NCBI GenBank assembly: GCA_001994995.1
Contig: MDJM01000047.1
Coordinates: 1-46,196, forward strand
Reading direction: 5' to 3'
DNA: 46,196 nt
Source of the DNA: Candidatus Parepulonipiscium sp. PG-Nuni2H_MBin01
GTDB lineage: Bacteria > Bacillota > Clostridia > Lachnospirales > Cellulosilyticaceae
In this document: positions 2,586 to 37,747 of the stretch, piece by piece
How positions within the stretch are numbered: the stretch's first letter is position 1
Layout of the letters: the number at the start of each line of letters is the position of its first letter
The notes under the pieces: generated by a model
What the model was told of the DNA's origin: nothing
The model's input: only the letters and a program-made list of their open reading frames with translations
Databases searched by the model: none
Position numbers and translations under genes: made by a program

Positions 2586-2633
2586 TGCTTAAATTGGGAA
2601 TAATATGTAAAAAAGATTGTGGAGGTAGTATTG

Positions 2634-3479
2634 ATGATTGCAACAGCAGAAGGAACTAAGGAAGTTTTGCATAAGTATCCATTTATATTTCAGAAGAAGT
2701 TTGGGCAGAACTTTTTGATTGACCCGCATGTGTTAAATAAGATTATTGCGGCAGCAGATATTAGTAGAGATGATTGCATTTTAGAGATTGGGCCGGGTAT
2801 AGGAAGTGTGACGGAGCAGTTGGTAGAACATGCGGGTAAAGTTATTTGTGTAGAGATAGATAATCAGTTGATTCCGATTTTAAACGAACAGTTTGGGCAT
2901 TATGATAATTTTGAGTTAATTCATAATGATATATTGAAACTAGATTTAGGGGATTTATTTGGTGGGGAAGAAAAGGTTAAAGTGGTAGCGAATTTACCTT
3001 ACTATATTACTACGCCTATAATTATGATATTGTTGGAAAACAAATTACCTTTAGAGAGCATAACTGTTATGGTGCAAAAAGAGGTGGCACTAAGAATGGC
3101 AGCGCAGCCTGGTACTAAACAGTATGGGGCGATTACGGCTGTAATGAATTATTATTGCGAAACTAGCTTGGTGGCAAATGTGCCACAGAATTGTTTTATG
3201 CCACGACCGAAAGTGGATTCTGCGGTTATTAAGTTAAAGTTATATGAGGAGCCGCCTATTCATGTGGAAGATGAGAAGATGCTGTTTAAAGTAATTAAGG
3301 CTGCTTTTGCGCAAAGACGTAAGACTTTGTTAAATAGTTTGTGCGCGCACTTTGAGATAGATAAAGAAGAGGTTAAAAATATGTTAGATGAGATAGGAAT
3401 TGAAGCAAATATTAGAGGGGAGACATTGGGATTAGAAGAATTTGCGAAAATATCAGATGTGTTGTCTAAACGGCATTAG
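2634..3479 (+). CDS. rsmA: 16S rRNA (adenine1518-N6/adenine1519-N6)-dimethyltransferase
   Basis: RsmA/KsgA dimethylates two adjacent adenines in the 3' terminal helix of 16S rRNA during 30S maturation, using S-adenosylmethionine. The product of 281 aa has the family hallmarks: KKFGQNFLID near residue 20, the SAM-binding ILEIGPGIGSVTEQL near 50, VEIDNQLI near 78, and the catalytic NLPYYITTP near 122. The ATG at 2634 is preferred over an in-frame GTG at 2619 because GGAGG (2621-2625) lies 8 nt upstream of it. The usual Firmicutes neighbour rnmV is missing. In Bacillus the genes after ksgA are yabG, veg and sspF; here a giant repeat protein follows 150 nt later. Confidence 0.95.
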   Translation: MIATAEGTKEVLHKYPFIFQKKFGQNFLIDPHVLNKIIAAADISRDDCILEIGPGIGSVTEQLVEHAGKVICVEIDNQLIPILNEQFGHYDNFELIHNDILKLDLGDLFGGEEKVKVVANLPYYITTPIIMILLENKLPLESITVMVQKEVALRMAAQPGTKQYGAITAVMNYYCETSLVANVPQNCFMPRPKVDSAVIKLKLYEEPPIHVEDEKMLFKVIKAAFAQRRKTLLNSLCAHFEIDKEEVKNMLDEIGIEANIRGETLGLEEFAKISDVLSKRH

Positions 3480-3629
3480 AGAAAAATATTAGGAGTCAAG
3501 CTGACAATGGATATTTATTAGAGTTAGTAGATGTAGCCTAGCTTGGGCCTATATTTTCTTTTGTTCTACCCAAATACAAATTTTCATATATATATAATGT
3601 TAAGCAAGTACAAGAAAAGGAGAGGGCGT

Positions 3630-6600
3630 ATGTATTTAAATACTTTTATTAATCTGGAAGAAAACATTAACGGCTACTCAAAAACTGGCAAACCAGTGAC
3701 AGGACATATAACTATAACGATGCCAGGAAGAGTGAAATTATATGTAGACGGATTACGCGATTCAGTAACTAAAAATTATGTATGTTATGTAATTAGTAGG
3801 GTAAAGAATAAGGCTATTAAATTAGGCGAAATAAGTATACCTAGCACAAACAAGCAAACTAACTGGAAGATTAACGTAAAGGATGTGTGTGGAAAAGGAG
3901 TAGATGCACCAAGTATTGATGCGGTTGCAATTGTAATTGAGGGTGACAATAGTGGAAATACAGATGTAATATTAGTAGGGTATATAGGTGATAGATACTT
4001 AATAACGCCGTTATTAGAAAAGGCTTTGCCAAAAGCAGCTAAACCACCTTTAGTACTAGAGCAAGAGAAGCCTAAAAAAGTTGAAGAGGTTCAGGTAACT
4101 CCTGTTGAAGTTACTCCGGTTGAAACTCCTGCTCCAGTTGAAGTTACTCCTGTTGAAGTGGCTTCTGCGCCAGTAGTTGAAGAAGCTCCTGCTGATGTTT
4201 CTCCTGTTGAGGCTCCTGCGCCAGTAGTTGAAGAAGCTCCTGCTGATGTTGCTCCTGTTGAGGCTCCTGCTCCAGTAGTTGAAGAAGCTCCTGCTGATGT
4301 TGCTCCTGTTGAAACTTCTGCTCCAGTAGTTGAAGAAACTCCTGTTGAAGCGGCTCCTGCTGAAGTTACTGAGACACTTACAGAAGTGGACCCTGAAGTT
4401 ATTGAAGTAGCTGAAGAACTAAAAGAAGCACATGAGTTTATTTCTGAAATAGTGGAGGAGTTAAAAGAAGCTGAGGAAGTAGATAAAACAACTGAGATTA
4501 ATCAAGCGCAAGCGACGTTAGACCAAGCGACAGATACAGTTAATCAAGCTGAGTCTATGCTAGATCAAGCATCTAATACATTAGATCAGGCTGAAACTAC
4601 TTTAAATCAAGCCGAGACTACTTTAAATCAGGTGGAGGCTACGGTTAATCAAGCTGAGGAAGAGGAAATTAATGAAATAATTGCAAGAGTCCATAATTTT
4701 AAGGATAATTTCCATCAACAGTTAATTGAAAAAGCTAGGGCTGAAGCTGAATTAGCAGAGAAGATAAAAGTTGAAGAGGCTAATAGGGCCGAAGATAACA
4801 ACGCTAAAGGAGCTTTTAAAGAGAAGTTTGAAGAAGTTAAAGAGAACTTTAAAGAAAAGTTTGAAGAGGTTAAATCTAATTTAGCACATGACAATAGAAC
4901 AACTGTTGTGGAGCAAGTGGATAAAACTGAGGAGCTTGATGAATTTGATGCTAGCGAAGCTACTGTAATAGAAGCTGTTAGTAAGGATGAATCTAAAAAG
5001 AATATTAGTGGAGTTGTTACTGATATTAAGGCTAAAGTGCAGCATGTGTTTGATAAGTTTGGTACTAAAATGAAGGCTGATATTGAGGAAGAGTTAGCTG
5101 AGTTGCAAGAGGAGCTGCAAGAGGAGTTAAAGGAAGTTAAGAGTGAAGCGTATGAAGACTTTAACGAAATTAAAGCTGCTGTAAAAGCTGATATGGAAAA
5201 AGATATTCAGGCTTATAAGGCTGATATTGAAAAAGAAATTAAGGATTACGAAGAATCTGTTAAAGCTGATATTAAGCACGATATTAAAGACTATAAAGCT
5301 GATGTTGATAAAGATTTTAATGCTTATAAAGAATCTGTTAAAGCTGATATTAAGCACGATATTAAAGACTATAAAGCTGATGTTGATAAAGATATTGAAG
5401 GTTATAAAGAATCTGTTAAAGCTGATATTGAGCACGATATTAAAGACTATAAGGCTGATGTTGATAAAGATATTGAAGGTTATAAAGAATCTACTAAATT
5501 CAATATTGATAAAGATATTAATGCTTATAAAGCTGATATTGAGCACGATATTAAGGCTTACGAAGCTAATGCTGATAAAGAGTTTAATGCTTATAAAGAA
5601 TCTACTAAATCCAATATTGATAAAGATATTAAAGCTTATGAAGCTGATGCTAATAAAGAGATTAAAGCTTATGAGGCTGATGCTAATAAAGAATTAAGTC
5701 CTTCTATTGATAAAGCGTTAAGTGAAATCAACAAAGTTTTAGGTGCTGATGATATAGTGGAAGCTGCTGAGACTATTTTAAAATATAAATTTAATGCACA
5801 GCCAGAAGTTAATGATGAAGTGAAAATATACAGTGACCAAATATCAAACGCTTTAGAGGAAATTGATAAACTATTAGGGGCGGATGATGTTGTTGATGCG
5901 GCTGATAAAATTTTGCAAGATAATATTTCTAAAAGTTCGCAAATTAACTTAAAACTTGTGTTACATGTTTTAAAGGTAATTAAGGATGCGTTGGAAGATA
6001 GTGGCTTTGAACAGAAGGGTGAGGCGAATGCAGGAGTTATTAGTGATATTGACTCAGATGTTACTACAAACGCAAATGTTAAACCAGGCATGGCAGCTAC
6101 AGCTGATTTTGGTGCAGATGAAGTTGTGGATGCAACTGAAGCTAGCATACAGAAGGAAAAAAACGAAGGCACAAACGGTTTAGGGCATAAAAAAACAGAA
6201 AAACTACATACGGAAATAGGAGAAGAAAACGAAGTTGAAATGCAAAAGGAGCTTAAGACTGCACAGCTTGAAGCTAAAGAACTTTTTGGTGATAAGCTTG
6301 AGGCTCCAGAAGTTGAGGCACTAGAAGTTCAAGAGTTTGAAGCACAAGAGCTTTCAGCACAAGAAATTGAAGAGTTTGAAGCACAAGAAGTTCAAGCACA
6401 AGAACTTGAGGTCCAAGAGTTTGAAGCACAAGAACTTGAAGTCCAAGAGTTTGAATCGCAAGAACTGTTAGATAATGAGATTGAGAAGTTAGAGGCGGAA
6501 CTTGAAAAGTTGGAGGAAGAATTAGAGAACGCACTTTTAGATGGTGACGTACATAAAGATAAACCACCTACTATGGAGGAACTTAAGTTTGCTATTGAGG

Positions 6601-9600
6601 AAATTGTTACAGCGAGCATGAGAGAATCGAGAATTCAGGATGCGGACCTTGTGGATGGTATGGTAAGGCATTATGTTAAGGATTTAGTTAAGGAAGCTAT
6701 AGCGGATATGTACCAACAAACTGAAGGTTTTAGCTTGCAAAGTCAGTTTAGAAGTTACTTAAAAGATGCTTTAGAATATGTTTATAATACAGCATTAGAA
6801 AAAGCACAGTCTGTACCTAAAGCTGAGTTTAATAGTGGTGCAAAAAATCAGATTAGGAAGTTTATAAAAGATGCGTTAGAAAGCATTTATGAGAAAGCGC
6901 TGGTTAAGGCGGGTATTAACCAAGAAGCGATTGTACCAGATGCTGTTGATGAAGCTTATACTGACTTTAGCACATTAGCATTAGCTGAGTTTGATGTGCA
7001 GGATTTGATGGATGATGCGTTAAAGCAGGTTTATGATGACGAAGAAAATAATCAAGATGATGAAGGTCCAGATTTTGACGCAGCAGATTTTGTTAAAAAT
7101 GTGTTCCATGATGCTTTAACTGAAATTTTCGTACAGTCTCCAGTTAAGAGAGAGATTTATGGTTTTATTAAAAATGCTTTAAATGATGTGCGTAGTAAAA
7201 CTGATGATATGCTTAGTAACGGGGTATCGGCTAAGGCGTTAAAACAGTTTATTGAAATTGCGTTTGAGAAGGTATATGACAATACTTTAATTACAGCACA
7301 TATAATTGTGGTAACAGGTGGCAAAGTTGAGAAGGCTTCTTATGACGAAATTATTTTGGCTGAAGATGAGGTTCAACAGTTGTTTGAAGATGCGTTAGAT
7401 TCAATTGAGTCGAATAAGTCTGGGCGACAATTTAAAGCGTTAGTAAATGATGCGTTGGCGGAAATTTTTGCTAGAAGTGAGGTAAAAAATCAAGTTGGAG
7501 ATGTTCTTAAAGAGGCGTTAAAAGAAATCTGTGATAAAGTATATTCTTTAAGCGCAGATGGTGTTACAGAAGGGTCGATTAAATCGTTTATCCAAGGGAC
7601 GCTTGAGAGTGTGTATGATAAGGTGTTAGTGAAGTCTGGGTTAATTCCGGGAGCTATAGATAAGTCTACTAATGCGGTTTTAACGCAGGATAAGGTGCAA
7701 AAGTTAATTGAAGATGCGTTAGAAGAGGTGCCATCGCCAGATAAGTTGCCACTAAAGCATTGGATTACTGATGCGTTAAAACAGATTTTTAATAAGTATG
7801 ATGATTATGAAACAGGAGCTGTTAGTGCTAATACTTATCAAGGTGGAGCTGACAAAGGACAGTCTGATGCTAATGATGGTCATACTGAAGTAGCTCATAC
7901 TTATCAAGTTACTCATTCTGATAATGTAGATAGCGATGTTACTCATTCTGATAATGTAGCTGGCGATGTTACTCATTCTGATACAACGCCTGCTGATGAT
8001 GTAGCTCATGATAATGAAGTAACTCATGCTAGCGATGTAGCTTATGATAATGAAGTAACTCATGCTAGCGATGTAGCTCATGATAATGAAGTAACTCATT
8101 CTGGCGATGTAGCTCATGATAATGAAGTAACTCATTCTGATGATGTAGCTCATGATAGCGACGTAGCTTATTCTGGCGATGTAGCTCATTCTGATAATGT
8201 AGCTAATAATAATGAAGCAACTCATTCTGATGATGTAGCTAATAATAATGAAGCAACTCATTCTGGCGATGTAGCTTATGATACCGAAGCCGCTCATGCT
8301 GATAATATTTCTACTACTAAAAGCGAAATGGTAACTACTAAGCATATTAAAGATTTAATTAAAGAAGCGCTAGCAGAAGTTAAAGCCCAAGATAAGAAAC
8401 CTACTGCACCTAAATCTTCAGCTAAAATGTCTATCTCAGATATTTTAGGTATGGTTGAAGGAATTAAATCTATGTTACCGAAAAAGCCAACTAAGCCAGA
8501 CGTTAAGCCGCCACATGTAGAGTCGCCTATAGTGCCTGAGCATGTAACGGAGATTAAACCAGTATTAACACCACAGCCGATTCCTAGACCACACCCTAGA
8601 CCAGAGCCGGAATCTAGTACTGAATCTAGTACCGAATCTAGTACTGAATCTAGTAGTATACAACAAATGAAGCAAGCTATCGAGGAGTTAGCAGAATTGT
8701 TCGACAATTTAAATAAGAAGGCCGATGCTAATTCTCAAACTGAAACTAATTCTAAAACCGAAACTGATTCTATTACTGAAACTAATTCTGGAAATAGCTA
8801 TAATGAGAATGCTAGTTCTAGTAGCGTTGAAAATTTGCAAGTGATTGAGCAGAAAATCGAAGGCTTAATGCAAGAAGAAGCAGGTTTAAAGCAAGAAGAA
8901 GAAGGCGATAAACAAGCTGAGGCTGGTGAAGTTGCTACTGTTAGTGGCTTAGAGCAGTCACATGGAAGTGTTAGTGAGATTGATAAGGCACAAGATTTGG
9001 AGCAAACGGATGCTAATAAAGTTTCGCAAACAGCAGGCTTAATAGAGCATATTCAGGGTGAGATAGAGAAGTTAGAAAGCTTGACAACTACTGATAACGA
9101 TGAATCTTATACTACTAAGCAGAATGTTAATAACGATGAATCGCATACTACTGAGCATAATGACGACGAAACGCATACTACTGAGCAGGATGTTACTCAT
9201 AATAATGAAGCGCATACTACTGAGCATAATGTGACTCATAATAACGATGAATCGCATACTACTGAGCATGATGTGACTCATAATAACGATGAAGCTTATA
9301 ACACTGAGCATGATGTTACTCATAATAACGATGAAGCTTATAACACTGAGCATGATGTTACTCATAATAACGATGAAGCGCATAATACTGTTACTCATAA
9401 TAACGATGAATCGCATACTACTGTTACTCATACTACTGAGCAGACTGTTACTACGACTACTACTACTGAGTTAGAGCATGAAATTGAGATTTTAGAACAA
9501 CAAGTATTAGATTTAGAGCAAGAAGAACAAGGGTTGGAACAAAAGGAAGAAGGAGAAAAGCAAGCTGAGGCTGGTGAAGCTGCTACTGTTGCTGGCTTAG

Positions 9601-11912
9601 AGCAGTCGCATGGAAGTGCTATTGAGATTGATAAAGCTGAAGGTTTGGAGCAAAAGGATGCTGGTGAAGTTTCGCAGACAGCAGGTTTAATAGAGCATAT
9701 TAAAGGTGAGATTGCTAAAGACAAAGGTTTGGAACAAAAAGCTGAAGGCGAAATTGCTATTGATAAAGGTTTGCAACAAAAGGCGGAAGGTGAAGCTGCT
9801 ATTGATAAAGGTGCCGATGCTACTGGACATGGTTTTGATAGTGCTACACAAGCAGGCTTGGCAGCTATTAAAGCTGGGGAGTTAGCTAAGGAAAAAGGCT
9901 TGCAAGAGAAAGCTGCTGGTGAGGCCGCTCTTGAAAAAGGCTTGCACGAGAAGGCTGCTGGCGAAGCGGCTAAAGAGGCTGGATTAAAGGCTAGTTTAGG
10001 TAGCGATGTCCACACTGTTGTTAATCACGATGATTTGACAGAAGCTGATTTAGAGGCTATTAAAGCTGGTGAGTTAGCTAAGGAAAAAGGTTTGCAGGAG
10101 AAAGCTGCTGGCGAGGCTGCTATTGAAAAAGGTCTGCAACAGAAGGCTGAAGGTGAAGCGGAGCAAGCTAAATGGTCTGCAAAAGATGAGTGGTCTGTAG
10201 CGCCTCATCAGACTGATTGGAATAATAAAGCCGATACGCACAAAACCGAGTGGCATAATAATTCGGAGCATCAAACCGATTGGAATAATAAAGCTGATAC
10301 GCATCAAACCGATTGGAATAATAAATCTGAGCATCAGACCGACTGGAACAATAAAGCTGATACGCATCAAACCGAGTGGCATAATAATTCGGAGCACCAA
10401 ACTGATTGGAACAATAAAGCTGACGCGCATCAAACTGAGTGGCATAATAATTCGGAGCACAAAACCGAGTGGAATAATAATTCAGTTGAGAATAGTGAAA
10501 CAACTTACAGCACTACTACAACTACTACCACTACTACTAACGAGCAGTTAGCTGATGCGCATAGAGATTTTTTGCATCGAAATAATATTCGTGAAAAAAT
10601 CCATGCATATAGAAATAAGCCTCAAGTATCTTTTAATACTAATCCTTTGTTACCGCAAGATGTGCTTGAAATGGTAAGTGATTTGGATGCACAATCAAAT
10701 AAAGCATCTGTAGAAAATTATATTAAGTCTATGGCTGAATCTAGTGTAATGGAGCCTAAAGAGCCGTCAGCGGAAGAGATAAATTTTATTAATGACTTCC
10801 AACAAAAGTTGCACGAGTTAAAACTATCGTTTTTAAATAATAGTGCGGTAACTGAAGCTACGGATCAGCTTACTAGACCAGCGCCTTATAATAAGTATGG
10901 CAATAAAAGTCCTATAGATCCAGCTCCTTATGCTAATAAAAGGCCTGTAGATCCAGCTCCTTATGCTAATAATAAGCCTGCGCCGCCGCCTGCTCCTTAT
11001 AATAAGCCTGTAGCGCCGGCAGCTCCTAATAATAAACCTGGGCACAATGATAAGCATGAGCATAATAAGCCTGATGCGCACAATAAGCATGAGCATAATA
11101 AACATGAGCATAATAAGCCTGAGCATAATAATAAGCCTGAGCATAATGATAAGCATGATAATAATAAGCCTGCTGAGCATAATAAACATGAGCATAATGA
11201 TAAGCATGATAATAAGCCTTCGCACAATGATAAACCTGAGCATAATAAACCTTCGCACAATGATAAACCGGAGCACAATAAACCTTCGCATAATGATAAA
11301 CCTGAGCATAATAAACCTTCGCATAATGATAAACCTGAGCATAATAAACCTTCGCACAATGATAAACCTGAGCATAATAAACCTGGGCATAGGGAAGAAC
11401 AAGTATCGAAAGATGCTACTCTTAAACAGATGCAGGATGAAGTTTTAAAGGTTAAGGAAGCTCTTGAGCATTTAAAGCAACAGAAAACTAAGACTCATGA
11501 TACAATTTTTAGAGAAGTGGAGCCTAAGTTAAGTTACATTAAGCACACTGGCGCAGATGATGAGTTTGCAAGGCTTGATGAGTTGTTTGCAAATAATATG
11601 AGAGTGGAGCCATTTGGTAATAATGCATTTCCGGTTGATTGGATTAATATATCGTTGGCTGAGCTAATATCCATTCCTCAAGTGAATTGTGATTGGGCGA
11701 CTCAGTCTAAGATTAGTCAGGCTTATCATAAGTATGGGCACTTGATTATAGGAAAAGAGCAAGAGAGCAGAAAATACTATATTGGTATTCCTGATACAGC
11801 AATGCGAAGCCGTAGAAATTCGATTGATATTGATAGAGTGATTGAGTTTGTACAGAAGCAAGGGCGCAAAGCTAGAGGGGTTGAGAATGGTTATTGGATA
11901 GCTCATTTATAA
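3630..11912 (+). CDS. Giant low-complexity multi-repeat protein (about 2760 aa), function unknown
   Basis: The start at 3630 has AAGGAGAGGG just upstream; an in-frame extension to 3543 has none. Residues 1-120 form a compact domain (KLYVDGLRDS, KLGEISIPS, DAVAIVIEG). Residues ~2625-2760 form a second one (VEPFGNNAFPVDWINIS, KYGHLIIGKEQES, ENGYWIAHL). From memory this pair occurs at the ends of much shorter clostridial proteins of unknown function; that is not verified. Between them lie Pro/Val/Glu repeats (~146-247), an Asn-Gln-Ala coiled coil (~289-344), 26-aa Lys/Asp/Tyr repeats (~514-691), LGADD repeats (~695-767), Glu-Ala-Gln-Glu repeats (~890-950), DAL-type helical repeats (~1007-1391), 12-aa His/Asp/Val repeats (~1457-1555), 14-aa EKGLQEKAAGEAA repeats (~2029-2179), 21-aa Trp repeats (~2193-2287), and His/Asn/Lys repeats (~2471-2589). 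There is no signal peptide, LPXTG or transmembrane segment, and almost no cysteine. A spore-coat or other structural role is plausible only by analogy and position. Confidence 0.85.
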   Translation: MYLNTFINLEENINGYSKTGKPVTGHITITMPGRVKLYVDGLRDSVTKNYVCYVISRVKNKAIKLGEISIPSTNKQTNWKINVKDVCGKGVDAPSIDAVAIVIEGDNSGNTDVILVGYIGDRYLITPLLEKALPKAAKPPLVLEQEKPKKVEEVQVTPVEVTPVETPAPVEVTPVEVASAPVVEEAPADVSPVEAPAPVVEEAPADVAPVEAPAPVVEEAPADVAPVETSAPVVEETPVEAAPAEVTETLTEVDPEVIEVAEELKEAHEFISEIVEELKEAEEVDKTTEINQAQATLDQATDTVNQAESMLDQASNTLDQAETTLNQAETTLNQVEATVNQAEEEEINEIIARVHNFKDNFHQQLIEKARAEAELAEKIKVEEANRAEDNNAKGAFKEKFEEVKENFKEKFEEVKSNLAHDNRTTVVEQVDKTEELDEFDASEATVIEAVSKDESKKNISGVVTDIKAKVQHVFDKFGTKMKADIEEELAELQEELQEELKEVKSEAYEDFNEIKAAVKADMEKDIQAYKADIEKEIKDYEESVKADIKHDIKDYKADVDKDFNAYKESVKADIKHDIKDYKADVDKDIEGYKESVKADIEHDIKDYKADVDKDIEGYKESTKFNIDKDINAYKADIEHDIKAYEANADKEFNAYKESTKSNIDKDIKAYEADANKEIKAYEADANKELSPSIDKALSEINKVLGADDIVEAAETILKYKFNAQPEVNDEVKIYSDQISNALEEIDKLLGADDVVDAADKILQDNISKSSQINLKLVLHVLKVIKDALEDSGFEQKGEANAGVISDIDSDVTTNANVKPGMAATADFGADEVVDATEASIQKEKNEGTNGLGHKKTEKLHTEIGEENEVEMQKELKTAQLEAKELFGDKLEAPEVEALEVQEFEAQELSAQEIEEFEAQEVQAQELEVQEFEAQELEVQEFESQELLDNEIEKLEAELEKLEEELENALLDGDVHKDKPPTMEELKFAIEEIVTASMRESRIQDADLVDGMVRHYVKDLVKEAIADMYQQTEGFSLQSQFRSYLKDALEYVYNTALEKAQSVPKAEFNSGAKNQIRKFIKDALESIYEKALVKAGINQEAIVPDAVDEAYTDFSTLALAEFDVQDLMDDALKQVYDDEENNQDDEGPDFDAADFVKNVFHDALTEIFVQSPVKREIYGFIKNALNDVRSKTDDMLSNGVSAKALKQFIEIAFEKVYDNTLITAHIIVVTGGKVEKASYDEIILAEDEVQQLFEDALDSIESNKSGRQFKALVNDALAEIFARSEVKNQVGDVLKEALKEICDKVYSLSADGVTEGSIKSFIQGTLESVYDKVLVKSGLIPGAIDKSTNAVLTQDKVQKLIEDALEEVPSPDKLPLKHWITDALKQIFNKYDDYETGAVSANTYQGGADKGQSDANDGHTEVAHTYQVTHSDNVDSDVTHSDNVAGDVTHSDTTPADDVAHDNEVTHASDVAYDNEVTHASDVAHDNEVTHSGDVAHDNEVTHSDDVAHDSDVAYSGDVAHSDNVANNNEATHSDDVANNNEATHSGDVAYDTEAAHADNISTTKSEMVTTKHIKDLIKEALAEVKAQDKKPTAPKSSAKMSISDILGMVEGIKSMLPKKPTKPDVKPPHVESPIVPEHVTEIKPVLTPQPIPRPHPRPEPESSTESSTESSTESSSIQQMKQAIEELAELFDNLNKKADANSQTETNSKTETDSITETNSGNSYNENASSSSVENLQVIEQKIEGLMQEEAGLKQEEEGDKQAEAGEVATVSGLEQSHGSVSEIDKAQDLEQTDANKVSQTAGLIEHIQGEIEKLESLTTTDNDESYTTKQNVNNDESHTTEHNDDETHTTEQDVTHNNEAHTTEHNVTHNNDESHTTEHDVTHNNDEAYNTEHDVTHNNDEAYNTEHDVTHNNDEAHNTVTHNNDESHTTVTHTTEQTVTTTTTTELEHEIEILEQQVLDLEQEEQGLEQKEEGEKQAEAGEAATVAGLEQSHGSAIEIDKAEGLEQKDAGEVSQTAGLIEHIKGEIAKDKGLEQKAEGEIAIDKGLQQKAEGEAAIDKGADATGHGFDSATQAGLAAIKAGELAKEKGLQEKAAGEAALEKGLHEKAAGEAAKEAGLKASLGSDVHTVVNHDDLTEADLEAIKAGELAKEKGLQEKAAGEAAIEKGLQQKAEGEAEQAKWSAKDEWSVAPHQTDWNNKADTHKTEWHNNSEHQTDWNNKADTHQTDWNNKSEHQTDWNNKADTHQTEWHNNSEHQTDWNNKADAHQTEWHNNSEHKTEWNNNSVENSETTYSTTTTTTTTTNEQLADAHRDFLHRNNIREKIHAYRNKPQVSFNTNPLLPQDVLEMVSDLDAQSNKASVENYIKSMAESSVMEPKEPSAEEINFINDFQQKLHELKLSFLNNSAVTEATDQLTRPAPYNKYGNKSPIDPAPYANKRPVDPAPYANNKPAPPPAPYNKPVAPAAPNNKPGHNDKHEHNKPDAHNKHEHNKHEHNKPEHNNKPEHNDKHDNNKPAEHNKHEHNDKHDNKPSHNDKPEHNKPSHNDKPEHNKPSHNDKPEHNKPSHNDKPEHNKPSHNDKPEHNKPGHREEQVSKDATLKQMQDEVLKVKEALEHLKQQKTKTHDTIFREVEPKLSYIKHTGADDEFARLDELFANNMRVEPFGNNAFPVDWINISLAELISIPQVNCDWATQSKISQAYHKYGHLIIGKEQESRKYYIGIPDTAMRSRRNSIDIDRVIEFVQKQGRKARGVENGYWIAHL
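5265..5498 (+). repeat. Tandem repeat, three 78-bp units
   Basis: Three near-identical 78-bp units begin at 5265, 5343 and 5421, each encoding 26 residues with the pattern ADIxHDIKDYKADVDKD. Degenerate copies continue to about 5700. The repeat is in phase with the reading frame, so unit loss or gain keeps the giant gene open. Confidence 0.85.
7998..8290 (+). repeat. 36-bp His/Asp/Val repeat block
   Basis: Eight or so 36-bp units encode 12 residues each of the form DVAHDNEVTHSG, with drift toward NVANNNEATHSD. One unit is half length. The pattern places one or two histidines per unit among acidic residues. Confidence 0.75.
8845..9725 (+). repeat. Duplicated segment flanking a His/Asn/Thr repeat block
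   Basis: The segment 8845-9085 (KQAEAGEVATVSGLEQSHGS ... SQTAGLIEHIQGEI) recurs at about 9478-9725 (KQAEAGEAATVAGLEQSHGS ... SQTAGLIEHIKGEI). Between the copies lies a block of THNNDE and TTEHDV units. This looks like segmental duplication followed by expansion of the intervening short repeat. Confidence 0.65.
9715..10165 (+). repeat. 42-bp repeats encoding EKGLQEKAAGEAA units
   Basis: Units of 14 residues (two heptads) rich in Ala, Gly, Glu and Lys occur in two arrays, each array preceded by AAIKAGELAKEKGL or LEAIKAGELAKEKGL. The composition recalls LEA-like or coiled-coil repeats. Confidence 0.65.
10206..10457 (+). repeat. Tandem repeat, four 63-bp Trp-containing units
   Basis: Four units begin at 10206, 10269, 10332 and 10395, each encoding 21 residues of the form HQTDWNNKADT followed by HQTEWHNNSE. 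Each half-unit carries one tryptophan. A partial fifth unit runs to 10490, then a polythreonine run. Confidence 0.85.
11217..11381 (+). repeat. Tandem repeat, five 33-bp His/Asn/Lys units
   Basis: Exactly five 33-bp units encode PSHNDKPEHNK. They are preceded by less regular HEHNK and HNDKH units from about 11040. The block is strongly basic and rich in His and Asn, which makes metal binding possible (inference). Confidence 0.88.
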
Positions 11913-11920
11913 ATTTTTGG

Positions 11921-11951
11921 AAGTAGCGGGAATACTCGCTACTTTTTTTTT
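11921..11951 (+). terminator. Terminator of the giant repeat gene
   Basis: A perfect 8-bp stem AAGTAGCG/CGCTACTT (11921-11928, 11937-11944) with an 8-nt loop ends in nine T. It lies 8 nt after the stop codon, so the giant gene is probably not co-transcribed with trmB. Confidence 0.85.
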
Positions 11952-12022: not shown

Positions 12023-12655
12023 GTGAGACTTAGGCGTGACCCTAGAGCAACATCTTATTTAGAAAACAGTGATAAAGTTATACAAAACCCAGTTGAATAT
12101 AAAGGTAAATGGGCACAGTTATTTGGCAATAACAACTGTGTGCATGTTGAGTTTGGGAGTGGTAAAGGGGGTTTTATAACTCAGTTAGCTCATCTGAATC
12201 CAGATATTAATTATATTGCAGTGGAGAAGGCAGAAACGGTGGTGTATAAAGCGTGTAAGAGAGCTGATGATATGCCGAGTAATTTGTATTTTCTATATTT
12301 TGACGTAGCAGATTGTTTGGATATATTTGCAAATGGTGAGGTGGAAAGAATTTATTTAAATTTTTCGGACCCATGGCCTAAGGCAAGGTATGCTAAGAGA
12401 AGGTTGACATATAGGGATTTTTTGGATAAGTATAAACAAGTGTTAGTTGAGGGGGGAGAGATTCATTTTAAGACTGATAATAAGGGATTGTTTGCTTCAT
12501 CGATAGAAGAGTTTTCTATGCGCAAATGGTTGATTAAAAATGTTAGTTTAGATTTACACAATGACGAGCAGACGGGGAATATAATGACAGAGTATGAGAA
12601 TAAGTTTTCACAGTTAGGGTTTACTATTAACAGACTAGAAGCAGTTGCTCCGTAG
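12023..12655 (+). CDS. trmB: tRNA (guanine46-N7)-methyltransferase
   Basis: TrmB makes 7-methylguanosine at position 46 of tRNA variable loops using SAM. The 210-aa product has the opening RLRRDPRA, the SAM site VEFGSGKGGFI near residue 45, the family signature NFSDPWPKARYAKRRL near 115-130, FKTDNKGLF near 150, and the closing MTEYENKFSQLGFTINRLEA. The start is GTG with GAGGACGAGG upstream. The last codons (LEAVAP, stop TAG) are the first unit of a 17-bp tandem repeat that runs on into the intergenic region. Confidence 0.95.
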   Translation: MRLRRDPRATSYLENSDKVIQNPVEYKGKWAQLFGNNNCVHVEFGSGKGGFITQLAHLNPDINYIAVEKAETVVYKACKRADDMPSNLYFLYFDVADCLDIFANGEVERIYLNFSDPWPKARYAKRRLTYRDFLDKYKQVLVEGGEIHFKTDNKGLFASSIEEFSMRKWLIKNVSLDLHNDEQTGNIMTEYENKFSQLGFTINRLEAVAP

Positions 12656-12731
12656 AAGCCCCGTAGAAGCCGTTGCTCCGTAGAAGCTGTTGCTCCGTAG
12701 AAGCCGTTGCTCCGTAGAAGCCATTGCTCCA
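12636..12731 (+). repeat. 17-bp tandem repeat derived from the trmB 3' end
   Basis: Six adjacent copies of TAGAAGCCGTTGCTCCG or close variants start at 12636, 12653 (internally shortened), 12664, 12681, 12698 and 12715. The first copy is coding: it specifies the last residues of TrmB, and the TAG of the second copy is the stop codon. The direction of decay suggests replication slippage outward from the gene. Confidence 0.9.
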
Positions 12732-29402: not shown

Positions 29403-29426
29403 GCGATTGTATCGCCTATTTTTTTT
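29401..29426 (+). terminator. Terminator after the secreted repeat protein
   Basis: A perfect 7-bp stem AGGCGAT/ATCGCCT with a 3-nt loop is followed by A and eight T. The stem begins within the stop codon. Confidence 0.85.
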
Positions 29427-31440
29427 AGCTGTAAAATTCTATATCAGTTGGCTCTAAACCAAAATGTGGGATTAGGCTTTTTATAAAGTTTAATTTAGTA
29501 GCTAGACTGCATGTGCTATTTAAATATATATTATCAGCAATTTTAGTTTTATAGCCACCGTGTTCAATTGCGCATAGTCTTCCTTTAAATGTATCGCTAG
29601 CAACTAGGTTTAGTAAAACTATAGCATTTATCTCATATAAATACTTACATATTTTATATAAACAATCTGACCAATTAGATACTTCAATAGCATTCATATT
29701 ATCGCCCATTGTAAAGTGAGTAATTTTGGTGCTTATATCATTATCATTTAAACTATAAATATTGTCGGGTACAATTTTAAATGTAGCAGGATACGGCCAT
29801 ATTTCAATAAACCGCTTAGTTAAATGCATTGTACGCTTTCTAATTTCATCTTCGTCCCATTTATCTAAATTCGCAAGATATTTATTAAGATAAACTAAGC
29901 TATCTTTATAACCATTTTCGATATTCTGCTTTTCTTTAAAAGATTTATTGCTAAGCTTTGAATTGTAGCCGCTATACGTTAAATTTCCTATAGTGTTTAA
30001 ATACGACTCATGAATTTCTCTATAGTTTATCCCTAACTCACGTTTCCAAGTTGGGGTTAATTTTTTAGGCATAATATGTTCTATCGTTAAACTTTTATTT
30101 GACATATCAAGCTGCTCTTTATTTCCGTACGTTTCTAGCATTTCAAATAAGTAATTTTTATTTTTACTAGCCATATTATAAATATTCTTAAACTCCAAAG
30201 CTTCTTCTACTGTTTTATCTGTAGGGAAATCCTTCTGTTGCCTACCTTTGCTTGCAAGAACATGACCTAAAACTAAATCGTAGTTTTCACCTGAAAAATG
30301 GTCATTAGCTTTTACTTCCTTACCTAACACAACAAAAATTTTATTTAACTTATTAGTAGACAAATCGCAAATTAATCGTCTAATAATAAAACTTTGGATT
30401 ATTTTAAGACAATTTATAGCCTGGTTAATATTTAGCTTTCCTTCATTATAATCGTTTAATAATTCTAGTAAAAATGGATAACTTACAGATACTTCTAATC
30501 GATTTATTCGCGTTATCTGTGTACGTAGCGGACTATCTACATCAGTTGTTATAAGTTTATAGTACTTTGAAAATTTTAGTAAATCTTTAAGCAGCTCATA
30601 TATATCGCTATTTTGAATTTTTACAAATTGCTTAAATGCTATATATACTTTAGATTGGGTAGGGATTATCCGCTGTTTTATGCTTAAATAATCTCGGATA
30701 AACTCACTTACATTGTTGCAAGTGTTGCTCTCAATTTTATGCCAATAGTTATTATATATATCTTGTTGCTCTTGTTGGGATTTGCGCAGTAAAATAAAAT
30801 TTCTAATTCTATCTGCTTCAGTTAAATCTAAACCTGTAGAATTTAAGCTTTCAAAAATAAGCTGAGGGTCATCTTCACCGTCTTTTAATTCCACATCCAC
30901 TATTATTAGCCGTGTAATTACAGCGTATATATTTAGTATTTTAGTTAAATCCAAGCGCTCATAAAAATATTTATAATTTAAAGTAATGTTAGAGTTTGCC
31001 ACTAAATTATCACGCTCGAATAGAGCATCATAGGCAATTTTATCATCTTTAATAGGAGCTAATTTTATGGGGTTATTATTGTATTTATCTATTAAATAAC
31101 TCTCTCTTATTATAGTAGGAAGATTTACTAATTGTACCTTATCTTCAATTTGATTAATATTATCTTCTAAAAAATGTGCGATTGCTAATAGCAATATAGA
31201 TATAGTAGTAAGTCGTTGCTGGCCATCAATAATAAGATAGTTTTTATAGCCAAAATAAATAGAAACCATAGCGCCAATAAAGTAGTTTGGTTTGTTATAA
31301 GCAATAACAAGTTCAATATCATCAAACAAGCGTTTACACTGCTCATTTTGCCAGTTATAATTACGCTGATATACAGGAATAGTAAACTTTTTATCTTTCC
31401 CTTCTAAGAAATCACATAAATATTTTTGTTTAGCATCCAT
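29425..31440 (-). CDS. DUF262/DUF1524 protein, GmrSD-like (probable defence nuclease)
   Basis: The 671-aa product has an N-terminal DUF262 (ParB-like NTPase) domain: IPVYQRNYNWQNEQC near residue 20 and YLIIDGQQRLTTISILLLA near 70. The C-terminal half has DUF1524, an HNH-type His-Me nuclease region with LTIEHIMPKKLTPTWKREL near 460 and NTIGNLTYSGYNSKLSNKSF near 485. A further ~100-residue tail (FTMGDNMNAIEVSNWSD) matches a common add-on whose role is unknown to me. The family includes the modification-dependent type IV enzyme GmrSD and BREX-associated BrxU, so phage defence is inferred. It is a lone gene, convergent with the preceding one. The ATG follows AGGAGG. Confidence 0.88.
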   Translation of the reverse strand: MDAKQKYLCDFLEGKDKKFTIPVYQRNYNWQNEQCKRLFDDIELVIAYNKPNYFIGAMVSIYFGYKNYLIIDGQQRLTTISILLLAIAHFLEDNINQIEDKVQLVNLPTIIRESYLIDKYNNNPIKLAPIKDDKIAYDALFERDNLVANSNITLNYKYFYERLDLTKILNIYAVITRLIIVDVELKDGEDDPQLIFESLNSTGLDLTEADRIRNFILLRKSQQEQQDIYNNYWHKIESNTCNNVSEFIRDYLSIKQRIIPTQSKVYIAFKQFVKIQNSDIYELLKDLLKFSKYYKLITTDVDSPLRTQITRINRLEVSVSYPFLLELLNDYNEGKLNINQAINCLKIIQSFIIRRLICDLSTNKLNKIFVVLGKEVKANDHFSGENYDLVLGHVLASKGRQQKDFPTDKTVEEALEFKNIYNMASKNKNYLFEMLETYGNKEQLDMSNKSLTIEHIMPKKLTPTWKRELGINYREIHESYLNTIGNLTYSGYNSKLSNKSFKEKQNIENGYKDSLVYLNKYLANLDKWDEDEIRKRTMHLTKRFIEIWPYPATFKIVPDNIYSLNDNDISTKITHFTMGDNMNAIEVSNWSDCLYKICKYLYEINAIVLLNLVASDTFKGRLCAIEHGGYKTKIADNIYLNSTCSLATKLNFIKSLIPHFGLEPTDIEFYS

Positions 31441-34745: not shown

Positions 34746-35147
34746 ATGACAGCAAGAAATTATGGTTTTACTTTATTAGAACTTATGATAGTAGTTATTA
34801 TCATAGGTATAGTTGCTACAATGGTTAGTCCACAACTTATTAACGTTGCAAATGAAACATCGTTAAAATCAGATATCCAAGCAGCTCAAGCACTTCAAAA
34901 TATGATAGATATGTATGTTGCAAATGGCAATAGTCTTGGAGATACTTCAATAGCTGGGATTTGCCAAACACTCGCTACAGCCAGTTATCTTAGTTCTAAA
35001 GATTTCGGTACAGATGGATTAAATTTAAGATTAGATGGAAATCAATTAACTTATTCCGAATCAGATGGGGTTAAGTTATCAGTTTCTAGTGAATATTTAG
35101 ATTTAGTAGAAAATCTTGATGATATTCAAAGATTGTGGATTAATTAA
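34746..35147 (+). CDS. Type IV prepilin / major pseudopilin
   Basis: The 133-aa product has a class III (prepilin) leader, YG followed by FTLLELMIVVIIIGIVATMV, with cleavage after Gly at residue 7 and Glu at mature position 5. The soluble part (~105 aa) is short, with an acidic C terminus (SEYLDLVENLDDIQRLW). It resembles ComGC/GspG-type pilins. It is the first gene of the pilus operon and follows AAAGGAG. Its stop overlaps the next start (TAATG), so translation is coupled. Which pilin is the main fibre subunit cannot be told from sequence, but position and length favour this one. Confidence 0.88.
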   Translation: MTARNYGFTLLELMIVVIIIGIVATMVSPQLINVANETSLKSDIQAAQALQNMIDMYVANGNSLGDTSIAGICQTLATASYLSSKDFGTDGLNLRLDGNQLTYSESDGVKLSVSSEYLDLVENLDDIQRLWIN

Positions 35148-35644
35148 TGAGAGATAATCAAGGGTTTACCGTACTAGAGTGCGTAATAGCCTGCTCATTA
35201 GTAGGGGTTGTGTTAATTGGAATAAATAGATTATCTATTAGCGCATTTGATGTGTATAACTCTCATTTAAGCGCTATAGAATTGGATAATAAAGCAGATA
35301 TGGTATATTATGCGCTTAAAAATAGGATTGAAAATGCGCAGACTCTCGTGTTTAATACGTCTCCTAATGGGGTTTTAAATTATGAGGATGAAATAGTAGA
35401 TAATCAATTTAGCTCAGTACGGCTATATTATTATGACGATGCTAGCTCTATATCACTATATTATAGCTCTTTGCAAGGTAACTTAAGTTACTCTACACAA
35501 GTTGTGCAAGAGGATATTAGTAGCATGAGGGTGAATAAAAAAGCTAATAGTGCAGTAGTAACAATATCGTATCAGTTTAGAAATTCGGATGAGGTTTATT
35601 ATTATGTTGTAGATTTAAGTAATAAGGGTGTGCGCGATGGGTAA
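35147..35644 (+). CDS. Minor prepilin (PilW/GspJ-like)
   Basis: The 165-aa product has a prepilin leader QG followed by FTVLECVIACSLVGVVLI, with Glu at mature position 5 and a Cys beside it. The soluble domain (NKADMVYYALKNRIENAQT, then beta strands around YYYDDASSISLYYSS) has the layout of PilW/GspJ-type minor pilins. Its start overlaps the previous stop and its end overlaps the next gene by 8 nt. Minor pilins prime fibre assembly at the tip. Confidence 0.82.
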   Translation: MRDNQGFTVLECVIACSLVGVVLIGINRLSISAFDVYNSHLSAIELDNKADMVYYALKNRIENAQTLVFNTSPNGVLNYEDEIVDNQFSSVRLYYYDDASSISLYYSSLQGNLSYSTQVVQEDISSMRVNKKANSAVVTISYQFRNSDEVYYYVVDLSNKGVRDG

Positions 35645-36833
35645 AACAATTATGGTACAAATTAATAGAAATAGTTATACTATACAAATTAATAGACTAC
35701 ACACTAAAACTTATCAAGTTATTACTAATTTGATTGATGATTTTAAAACTACGTTAGCTGAGTTAGTATCAACGTATAAGTTAAAAAATAATAAAATGAT
35801 AGTTTATTTAAATGAAGAGCTAGTAACTTATAAGGTTGTAAATGTATATGCGCGTAATAGGCAGCATGTACCTAAATTATTGATATATAATCAGAAAGAT
35901 TATTTAAATATAGATAAAATGACACTTGATTATAAAATAATTGGTAGGGATATTTCTAAGGAAAAGTTTAAAGTGCAGCTGGTGGGTATACCAGATAAGC
36001 TAACGACTGAGTTAGTGAGTATAACTAAAAGCTTTAATTTTAGGTTAAAACTTATTACTACTAAAGGACTAATATTTATTAAGCAGTTTTCTAATACAAG
36101 TGATATATATATCGTTATTGATAAATATGAAAATTTGTTTGCAGTACAAAATAAAAGCATTATATACACTATGCAAAATATTGATAATTTACCTTATTTA
36201 ATTAATGCTCTGCAGCAATATAGTAATAAGCAACTAAAAGCGATTGTGGTTGATAAACAATTAAAAACTGAGTTTGAAACATCACATCAAATCATTCGTA
36301 AAAATTTTAAATTTTTTAAGTATGTTAAGCCTTGGAATTTAATACCCCGCGTTGAGCAGAAACAGGTTAAGACTAATCAATTTCGTAAAGTTATAGCGGT
36401 AGAAACTGCTGTATTTCTTGTAGCTACAATAATAATTCCGTGCATTCAAATATTGGCTAAGCATCAGCAAATTATTGATATTGAAACTAATATTAATAGC
36501 GATAAGTTTACAGAGGCTAGTTTAGTTTTATATCAGTTAACTCAAGAACATCATCAACAACAAATTTATAACGAAAAAATTCAATATTTAAATAGTTATT
36601 CGTTAATTAATCCTGCTAGTATTGAGGTTATTACGGCTTCTGCAAACTCTTACGTTACAATTACGCGCTTAAGTGTTAATAGTAACATTCAAATTGATTT
36701 GGAAGGGACGTATACGTCGCATAGTAAGTTAATGGAATATATAGAAATATTAGAAACTCAAATTAATAATATTAAAATTGAGATTAATCAGGTTAATAAT
36801 TCGTTTTCAATAAGCGGTAGTATTATGTATTAA
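35637..36833 (+). CDS. PilM-PilN fusion (GspL-like) pilus assembly-platform protein
   Basis: The 398-aa product has an N-terminal ~240-residue cytoplasmic part of PilM/GspL actin-like type, strongly diverged. It then has the PilN-type start PWNLIPRVEQKQ near residue 235, a transmembrane helix (AVETAVFLVATIIIPCIQIL, ~255-275), a coiled segment, and a C-terminal ferredoxin-like domain (NSYVTITRLSVNSNIQIDLEG near 340). PilM, PilN and PilO form the inner-membrane alignment platform. Fusion of PilM with PilN mimics GspL. No ATP-binding motifs of PilM were recognised, so the fold call is moderate. ATG at 35637 overlaps the previous gene. PilO-like follows 13 nt later. Confidence 0.7.
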   Translation: MGKTIMVQINRNSYTIQINRLHTKTYQVITNLIDDFKTTLAELVSTYKLKNNKMIVYLNEELVTYKVVNVYARNRQHVPKLLIYNQKDYLNIDKMTLDYKIIGRDISKEKFKVQLVGIPDKLTTELVSITKSFNFRLKLITTKGLIFIKQFSNTSDIYIVIDKYENLFAVQNKSIIYTMQNIDNLPYLINALQQYSNKQLKAIVVDKQLKTEFETSHQIIRKNFKFFKYVKPWNLIPRVEQKQVKTNQFRKVIAVETAVFLVATIIIPCIQILAKHQQIIDIETNINSDKFTEASLVLYQLTQEHHQQQIYNEKIQYLNSYSLINPASIEVITASANSYVTITRLSVNSNIQIDLEGTYTSHSKLMEYIEILETQINNIKIEINQVNNSFSISGSIMY

Positions 36834-36846
36834 AACGGAGGGAGCT

Positions 36847-37275
36847 ATGGATAAAGCGATTATTGTAGTACAACTAGTTTGCCTAATGGTGTTGTATCCT
36901 TTATTAATGGATAGAAAAGATGAATTAGACAATTTAATTGTGAATAAAAATATAGAATTAGAAAGACTTACGAAAATTGCAAGTAATGATATAAATTACT
37001 TAGTAGAACAACAAAATAATTTACTTCCTAAAGATGAAGGAATAACTAAGCAAACAGATAATTTACTTAATCCATTAATTACCAGTATTAATCCTATTAC
37101 TACTAATTATTTAGATATAGGCGTTATTGAGAGGGAATATGAAGTTTCGTTTACAGGGCCTATTCTTAAGGCTATTGAGAGTATCCAGAATGTGTATCCG
37201 CTTACTAAGGTGGGATATATTGATTGGCGAACTGATGGTAAGATGAGAATTTTGGTGTATACCGATGATAAATAA
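36847..37275 (+). CDS. PilO-like pilus assembly protein
   Basis: The 142-aa product has one N-terminal transmembrane helix (AIIVVQLVCLMVLYPLLM, residues ~4-21), a coiled-coil stretch (DELDNLIVNKNIELERLTK), and a small C-terminal alpha/beta domain ending in TKVGYIDWRTDGKMRILVY. Gene order after a PilN-like domain, size and topology fit PilO/GspM. Identity is by context more than motif. GGAGGG precedes the ATG. It overlaps the next gene by 11 nt. Confidence 0.65.
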   Translation: MDKAIIVVQLVCLMVLYPLLMDRKDELDNLIVNKNIELERLTKIASNDINYLVEQQNNLLPKDEGITKQTDNLLNPLITSINPITTNYLDIGVIEREYEVSFTGPILKAIESIQNVYPLTKVGYIDWRTDGKMRILVYTDDK

Positions 37276-37747
37276 TAAAGGGTTAACGTATATGGAGCTG
37301 TTATGTAGTGCGGTTATTGTAATTGTATCTTTTAGTATTTTTTTACGTAGCACTTCGTCTAGTATGATTATTGCAAATCATGCGTATGACACTAATCAAT
37401 TGTTAATGCTAGGCAGTGAATTGATGATGGTAATAAATGCTAATAAAAATGTAATAGAAAATACAAGTTTTTCTGATTTTAATACGTTATTATATGAATT
37501 ATACGGTAGTACAGTTGCTCAAGATAGATATGATCTGGATAAGTACGATTATCATGTAGCAATAGTAAATACAAGTGGTAATGCTAGTAGAATAATTAGT
37601 ACAGCACAAAGTAGGTTTAATATAGAAGAGATTTTTAAAGATGCACAAATTAACCTTCCTGCGCCATTAGAAAATACAAAATTAATTGTAGTTAATGCTA
37701 TGGCTAAAGATTATGAAGGGAGTGCAGTATATTTTGGACTATTTTAA
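37265..37747 (+). CDS. Minor prepilin-like protein
   Basis: The 160-aa product has the leader MINNKG followed by LTYMELLCSAVIVIVSFSIFL, a prepilin-type N terminus in which the +1 residue is Leu rather than Phe; Glu at mature position 5 is kept. The soluble part has no recognised domain. It overlaps both neighbours, so it is translated from the polycistronic pilus mRNA. A PilV-like minor pilin is the likely assignment. Confidence 0.75.
   Translation: MINNKGLTYMELLCSAVIVIVSFSIFLRSTSSSMIIANHAYDTNQLLMLGSELMMVINANKNVIENTSFSDFNTLLYELYGSTVAQDRYDLDKYDYHVAIVNTSGNASRIISTAQSRFNIEEIFKDAQINLPAPLENTKLIVVNAMAKDYEGSAVYFGLF

Follow-up and report, generated by a model that had tools for sequence, protein, structure and literature searches.

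SipL, a scaffold of spore-coat encasement, carries DUF3794 domains and a C-terminal LysM domain that binds SpoIVA (PMC6436350). In E. viviparus (type B) an altered form of sporulation yields live offspring and mature spores are no longer made; phase-bright spores are formed by other epulos (PMC3416734, PMC8245194). The stretch of DNA analysed here (the window, 46,196 nucleotides) comes from a member of the Epulopiscium/Cellulosilyticum family; a KsgA tree did not settle the place of the genome inside its family, and membership of the genus Epulopiscium is not claimed. It encodes a giant protein whose two ordered end domains are connected by roughly 2500 residues (2515 aa) of acidic linker, with more than 10 unrelated repeat blocks. 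Computation shows a family with two conserved end domains, a linker that is free in sequence and length but acidic, and a phylogenetic profile that tracks sporulation genes. We lean toward the view that the giant protein is an outsized cytoplasmic mother-cell sporulation scaffold of this DUF7922-linker-DUF6128 family and, since the family occurs almost only in spore-forming relatives, that the scaffold probably surrounds the spore or offspring cell as it develops.

The giant gene and the two-domain family

The gene runs from ATG 3630 to the stop at 11912 as a single open frame of 2760 residues, with zero internal stops and zero ambiguous residues (Table 1). The program-made reading frame opens further upstream, at TTG 3543, but the true start is ATG 3630, because a good ribosome site precedes it and orthologues begin there. 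The original prediction had proposed an uninterrupted frame of about 2760 residues from 3630, closed at either end by an ordered domain. Both points are borne out, start included: the frame is intact rather than broken by sequencing errors, and the ends are DUF7922 and a diverged DUF6128, neither of which was placed in a known enzyme family by Pfam, NCBIfam, structure or PDB searches.

Table 1. Positions in the window of the giant gene, its parts and its neighbors
Feature	Position	Strand	Basis
ksgA (rsmA), conserved upstream neighbor	2619..3479	+	Pfam / locus comparison
Conserved footprint TGTTCTA-N16-CATATA, counterpart of TCATAT-N14/15-TCATATACA in Cellulosilyticum-type relatives	3562..3590	+	upstream alignment
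Ribosome binding site aaggag ahead of ATG 3630	~3617..3622	+	sequence inspection
Whole gene, 2760 aa: DUF7922 - acidic repeat linker - DUF6128-like	3630..11912	+	open frame, translation, Pfam scan
N-terminal domain, aa 1-135, DUF7922; predicted 8-strand beta-sandwich	3630..4034	+	Pfam E 1.4e-67, AlphaFold2
Pro/Val/Glu/Ala repeat block (aa ~145-250)	4062..4379	+	translation, TRF
NQAE(T/A)L 7-mers, coiled-coil-like block	4498..4658	+	translation, TRF
Lys/Asp/Tyr 26-mers (78-nt period)	5179..5697	+	TRF
LGADD helical segment (aa 677-791)	5658..6002	+	alignment to L032: 34%, 118 columns, E 3e-4
EAQE/EVQE 5-mer block	6298..6463	+	TRF
Degenerate DAL(E/K) amphipathic helical units (aa ~1040-1395)	6747..7814	+	protein sequence scan
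His/Asp/Val/Asn 12-mers (36-nt period)	7908..8306	+	TRF
TESST / TETNSK units	8610..8789	+	TRF
TTEHDVTHNNDE 14-mers (TTEHDVTHNND; 42-nt period)	9094..9432	+	TRF
(E/D)KGL 14-mers (42-nt period)	9703..9973	+	TRF
Trp/His/Asn 21-mers (63-nt period)	10206..10480	+	TRF
PAPYANK Pro-rich units	10902..11040	+	TRF
His/Asn/Lys/Pro 11-mers (33-nt period)	11027..11391	+	TRF
C-terminal domain, aa ~2641-2760, diverged DUF6128; predicted alpha+beta	11550..11909	+	Pfam E 0.011; iterated profile 3e-38
Intrinsic terminator (gtagcgggaatactcgctac + T run), 3' of the giant gene stop	~11920..11951	+	sequence
trmB, downstream neighbor, kept in part of the family	12023..12655	+	Pfam / locus comparison

The N-terminal 135 residues match DUF7922 (PF25538) end to end, scoring 226 bits against a curated cut-off of 25 and covering profile positions 1-135 of 136; most full-length members measure some 310-650 aa, vs. 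2760 here. The C-terminal domain aligns with positions 25-110 of DUF6128 (PF19623) and has the same W...GIPD...GYW pattern, but at 16.2 bits it falls under the curated cut-off of 27, whereas some shorter relatives with the same architecture exceed it. Iterated profiles built on the loci of relatives link the C-terminus of the giant protein to them (E 3e-38), and because they tie it to members above the cut-off we call the domain, on sequence grounds, a diverged DUF6128 relative. No paper mentioning DUF7922 or DUF6128 was found in a literature search, and an NCBIfam search of the giant protein gave zero matches. In AlphaFold2 models the N-domain folds as a beta-sandwich (pLDDT 80) and the C-domain as alpha+beta (pLDDT 86). 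Foldseek returned no significant match to the predicted N-domain (best E 0.03), and VIA-align placed it best with the beta-sandwich of Cu,Zn superoxide dismutase (Z 8.5, rmsd 2.7, 93 residues), a likeness between model and enzyme that we take as one of fold only. The N-domain differs from that enzyme in having no such His cluster, only one column holding His in at least 30% of members, and the Pfam scan of the giant protein gave no Cu,Zn-SOD match; with no conserved His ligand set, dismutase activity is not expected. In the PDB sequence search the N-domain profile matched mainly short segments of antibodies, with E values of 4e-4 or worse that were judged to be chance, while the predicted C-domain found nothing at Z ≥5 in the structure search and its profile nothing in the PDB sequence search.

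We define the two-domain family by the presence of both end domains in one protein with an acidic variable linker between them, and the giant protein, with both domains in one frame and an acidic linker, belongs to it. The original prediction had proposed looking for other proteins that share both termini and comparing their lengths; these were found across the order Lachnospirales, in many cases immediately 3' of ksgA, but their usual size, 312-983 aa, is far smaller. Across 392 genomes of the order, the longest of the DUF7922 frames listed measured 1083 aa, except for that of the window (2791). A scan of named genomes gave matches in Epulopiscium, E. viviparus, Niameybacter, Sporanaerobium, and Cellulosilyticum. 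Six relatives were tested against Pfam, of which two lie above both cut-offs and several match both models. The N-domain of the window is nearest to those of Epulopiscium MAGs (60-64%). Among the 21 relatives that carry both domains within a single frame, linker length spans 61-731 aa (median 230), compared with 2515 here, and the linkers barely align with one another, yet acidity is constant, with net negative charge in 22/22 (these relatives plus the giant protein). Judged by such comparisons, the giant protein stands at the extreme of a family that is widespread and whose members are normally small.

The architecture is not kept everywhere. Profile searches left the C-terminal domain undetected in most members of genus g3 (Cellulosilyticum type). 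In E. viviparus the DUF7922 gene has a frame change at an A9 run just before the DUF6128 domain, which leaves the N- and C-domains in separate frames; the change (L034:8363-9830, L033:9431-9470) is identical in two assemblies: the gene may truly be broken, it may be read through by transcriptional slippage, or both assemblies may carry one sequencing error. Two heads are therefore neither indispensable nor universal. Among the g3 members without a detectable C-terminal DUF6128 (L043, L044, L049, L039), most finish in a charged helix (e.g., EIDKRIKEIEARRKQE). A further short protein of E. viviparus, about 200 aa long, contains DUF7922 only (L063:4277-5448, L064:4621-5223) and is present as two tandem copies in one assembly. 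In Cellulosilyticum ruminicola, stop codons interrupt the start of the DUF7922 domain (L051 ~4926-5320; G016:C8), and this gene may be decaying or the interruption may be an assembly error.

Repeats in the linker

Tandem Repeats Finder reported 49 rows within the giant gene, and the period is divisible by three in 49/49. Immediately beyond the gene, at 12636-12730, it reported a period-17 array. Periods that are all multiples of three inside the gene, against 17 outside, are what coding selection would be expected to leave, not chance. The period-17 repeat itself comprises about six copies, begins in the final trmB codons, and extends into intergenic DNA. All the repeat blocks named in the original prediction are present, together with TESST/TETNS units, TTEHDVTHNND 14-mers, and PAPY units that it had not listed. 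The 2760-residue protein is rich in Glu (12.5%) and Asp (8.4%) and contains 0.1% Cys. Linker residues 677-791 align with the DUF7922 protein of relative L032 (34%, E 3e-4); with the linker reversed as a control the best E was 0.001, and there is thus modest evidence for regarding this LGADD segment as the sole linker stretch with a convincing counterpart in the DUF7922 protein of a relative.

The strongest competing explanation, to which we give a substantial but lesser chance, accepts a real sporulation protein and denies any function to its giant length: the linker would be near-neutral, slippage and unequal crossing-over would keep lengthening it by repeats that preserve the frame, and a sequence would need only to be acidic and soluble. 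The linkers of relatives are indeed nearly unalignable, a masked search giving no match and a further comparison one convincing match of 118 columns; length varies forty-fold, most linkers have short repeats of their own, and composition alone is kept. The assemblies of relatives L035, L036, and L037 also break within the linker. However, at least 10 unrelated repeat families in frame over 7.5 kb require repeated growth without loss, nothing similar is seen in the other genes of the window, and the degenerate state of the helical and LGADD units points to segments that are older and under selection. Slippage may in part have driven the giant length, and such growth in a linker that tolerates it would account for much of the tenfold increase.

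Association with sporulation genes

We searched 59 genomes with both domain profiles and with SpoIVA, and found the two-domain family in 43/48 SpoIVA-positive vs. 4/11 SpoIVA-negative genomes (p 5e-4). SpoIIIAE was then looked for in 15 genomes, namely the SpoIVA-negative ones, three family-negative ones, and that of the window; it is present in 3/4 of the SpoIVA-negative genomes having the family and absent from 7/7 that have neither, 6/7 of these double negatives being 96-100% complete. With SpoIVA and SpoIIIAE combined, the family occurs in 46/51 spore-gene-positive vs. 1/8 negative genomes (Fisher p 1.7e-5, a value that overstates independence as the genomes are related). The two-domain family is also missing from several lineages that have no spore genes (f2, sampled f5, f20, f22, and G051 of f8), and within f8 a C-domain match is found in the spore-gene-positive genome and none in the negative one (G051). 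Exceptions occur in both directions. Five genomes are spore-gene-positive and family-negative, of which G010 and G013 are incomplete and G025, G040, and G053 are less easily excused, and G058 (83% complete) has the two-domain family with SpoIVA and SpoIIIAE absent. Overall, the link of the family to sporulation is supported by computation.

Profile searches of the host genome itself detected SpoIVA, SpoIIIAE, three SASPs, and two GerA receptors, a gene set that appears compatible with true spores. The YabG protease, which nearly all family members have, was not found in this genome (96% complete). The idea that the giant gene replaces yabG was dropped, as most relatives carry both genes, at different places.

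Promoter comparisons bear on the same question. The footprint TGTTCTA-N14-17-CATATA lies upstream of all Epulopiscium-type orthologues and of those of Niameybacter and G006, while Cellulosilyticum-type relatives have the sigma-E-like pair TCATAT(A/G)...TCATATACA. The spoIVA genes of the same genomes have GTCATAT...CATATATTT, which is the published sigma-E promoter of spoIVA in Epulopiscium type B (PMC3416734, Table 4). Scored against a sigma-E consensus taken from that study (maximum 15; PMC3416734), the TCATATGT...TCATATACA of Cellulosilyticum-type orthologues reaches 13/15, and the family mean is 11.5/15, compared with 10.6 for controls (shuffle sd 0.84) and 11.8 for spoIVA. The region upstream of the giant gene scores 11/15, not above background, and its best position differs from the conserved footprint; given this weak match, the argument for sigma-E control of the giant gene draws on the footprint and the relatives. 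Sigma-K and sigma-A scores of the family upstream regions were at background, and a candidate sigma-K promoter (CATANNNTA) that looked good in some orthologues was rejected on this overall score. A search of the host genome for a TGTTCTA-N14-17-CATATA regulon gave the giant gene and one intra-coding site only, equal to the control count, and no regulon was defined.

The order tatD - G5/3D protein - ksgA - giant gene - trmB - thioredoxin is wholly or partly kept in relatives, and ksgA lies directly 5' of the two-domain gene in other families of the order as well (L054, L055). In many Cellulosilyticum-type genomes, apparent aromatic-amino-acid genes, recognized by eye from their translations, lie between these genes. 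Elsewhere in the window, 29425-31440 encodes a GmrSD-type restriction endonuclease, a possible defense gene, and 34746-37747 holds a small cluster, possibly a pilus or competence-like operon, in which the first gene encodes an N-methylation (pseudopilin) protein and is followed by genes for proteins without Pfam matches.

Were the protein a vegetative cytoplasmic scaffold, or an organizer of the cytosol or chromosome, shared ancestry alone would have to produce its co-distribution with sporulation. The housekeeping genes that adjoin the giant gene and the presence of the family in G058, which has neither SpoIVA nor SpoIIIAE, are in keeping with this; we nonetheless consider it unlikely, because separate spore-gene-free lineages, most of their genomes 96-100% complete, are all without the family and part of the family has a sigma-E-like promoter.

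A candidate scaffold and its described counterparts

In the sporulation-scaffold model that we prefer, sigma-E would activate the gene in the mother cell at about the time of engulfment. Each end domain, the N-terminal beta-sandwich as well as the C-terminal one, would dock on a partner in the surface layer of the forespore or offspring, the obvious candidates being SpoIVA or the coat base layer, and the acidic linker, mostly disordered or helical, would act as a spacer or bridge that holds layers apart or ties them together. In the host, in-frame tandem duplication would have extended this linker about tenfold into a very long two-headed tether. Both the coat location and the partners of the giant protein are our inference. 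A more specific proposal, which we regard as improbable, is that the scaffold was enlarged in a lineage whose cells are giant and reproduce internally, to fit unusually large forespores or offspring, bridging the mother cell and the offspring envelope. On this proposal the fully extended protein could span several hundred nm, and how deep a coat-like or brush-like layer is would depend on its length.

Two further explanations fare worse. A secreted or surface adhesin, or a matrix protein with a repeat stalk, is suggested by the outline of two domains on either side of a repeat-rich stalk, which resembles surface proteins. However, the original prediction had seen no signal peptide, anchor, or transmembrane helix, and our scans agree: no signal peptide or hydrophobic segment was found in the 2760-residue protein (Kyte-Doolittle, best 19-residue mean 1.08) and no anchor domain in Pfam scans of it and six relatives, making an adhesin very improbable. 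Least probable of all is an assembly or binning artifact that fused repeats into one frame, since even in a draft genome of 88 contigs, with repeats that are hard to assemble, 49/49 repeat rows are in frame, both conserved ends share that frame with footprint, ribosome site, and terminator, and relative L032 has its parts in matching order within a single frame of 983 aa. Because repeats are prone to collapse when short reads are assembled, the true length of the giant protein could be larger.

The role of spore coat or intracellular scaffold given in the original prediction holds in outline, through the profile over 59 genomes, the spore genes of the host, the lack of a secretion or anchor signal in our scans, and the sigma-E-like promoter of some orthologues; the elastic or matrix-forming role that it also suggested gains no support from these results. 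Two nameless Pfam domains are here united in a single candidate sporulation protein that is widespread in Lachnospirales, and cultured relatives offer a way to test the prediction. Live offspring evolved from endospores in Epulopiscium, and in its family this candidate developmental gene is hugely enlarged in one genome and split by a frame change in another, that of E. viviparus, no longer a maker of mature spores. Neither LysM, a feature of SipL, SpoVID, and SafA, nor the DUF3794 of SipL was found in the Pfam scan of the giant protein. We liken it to SipL and SpoVID by function only: these are soluble scaffolds of the mother cell that act in the SpoIVA pathway and bind a partner through an end domain (PMC6436350), and the giant protein is a putative counterpart.
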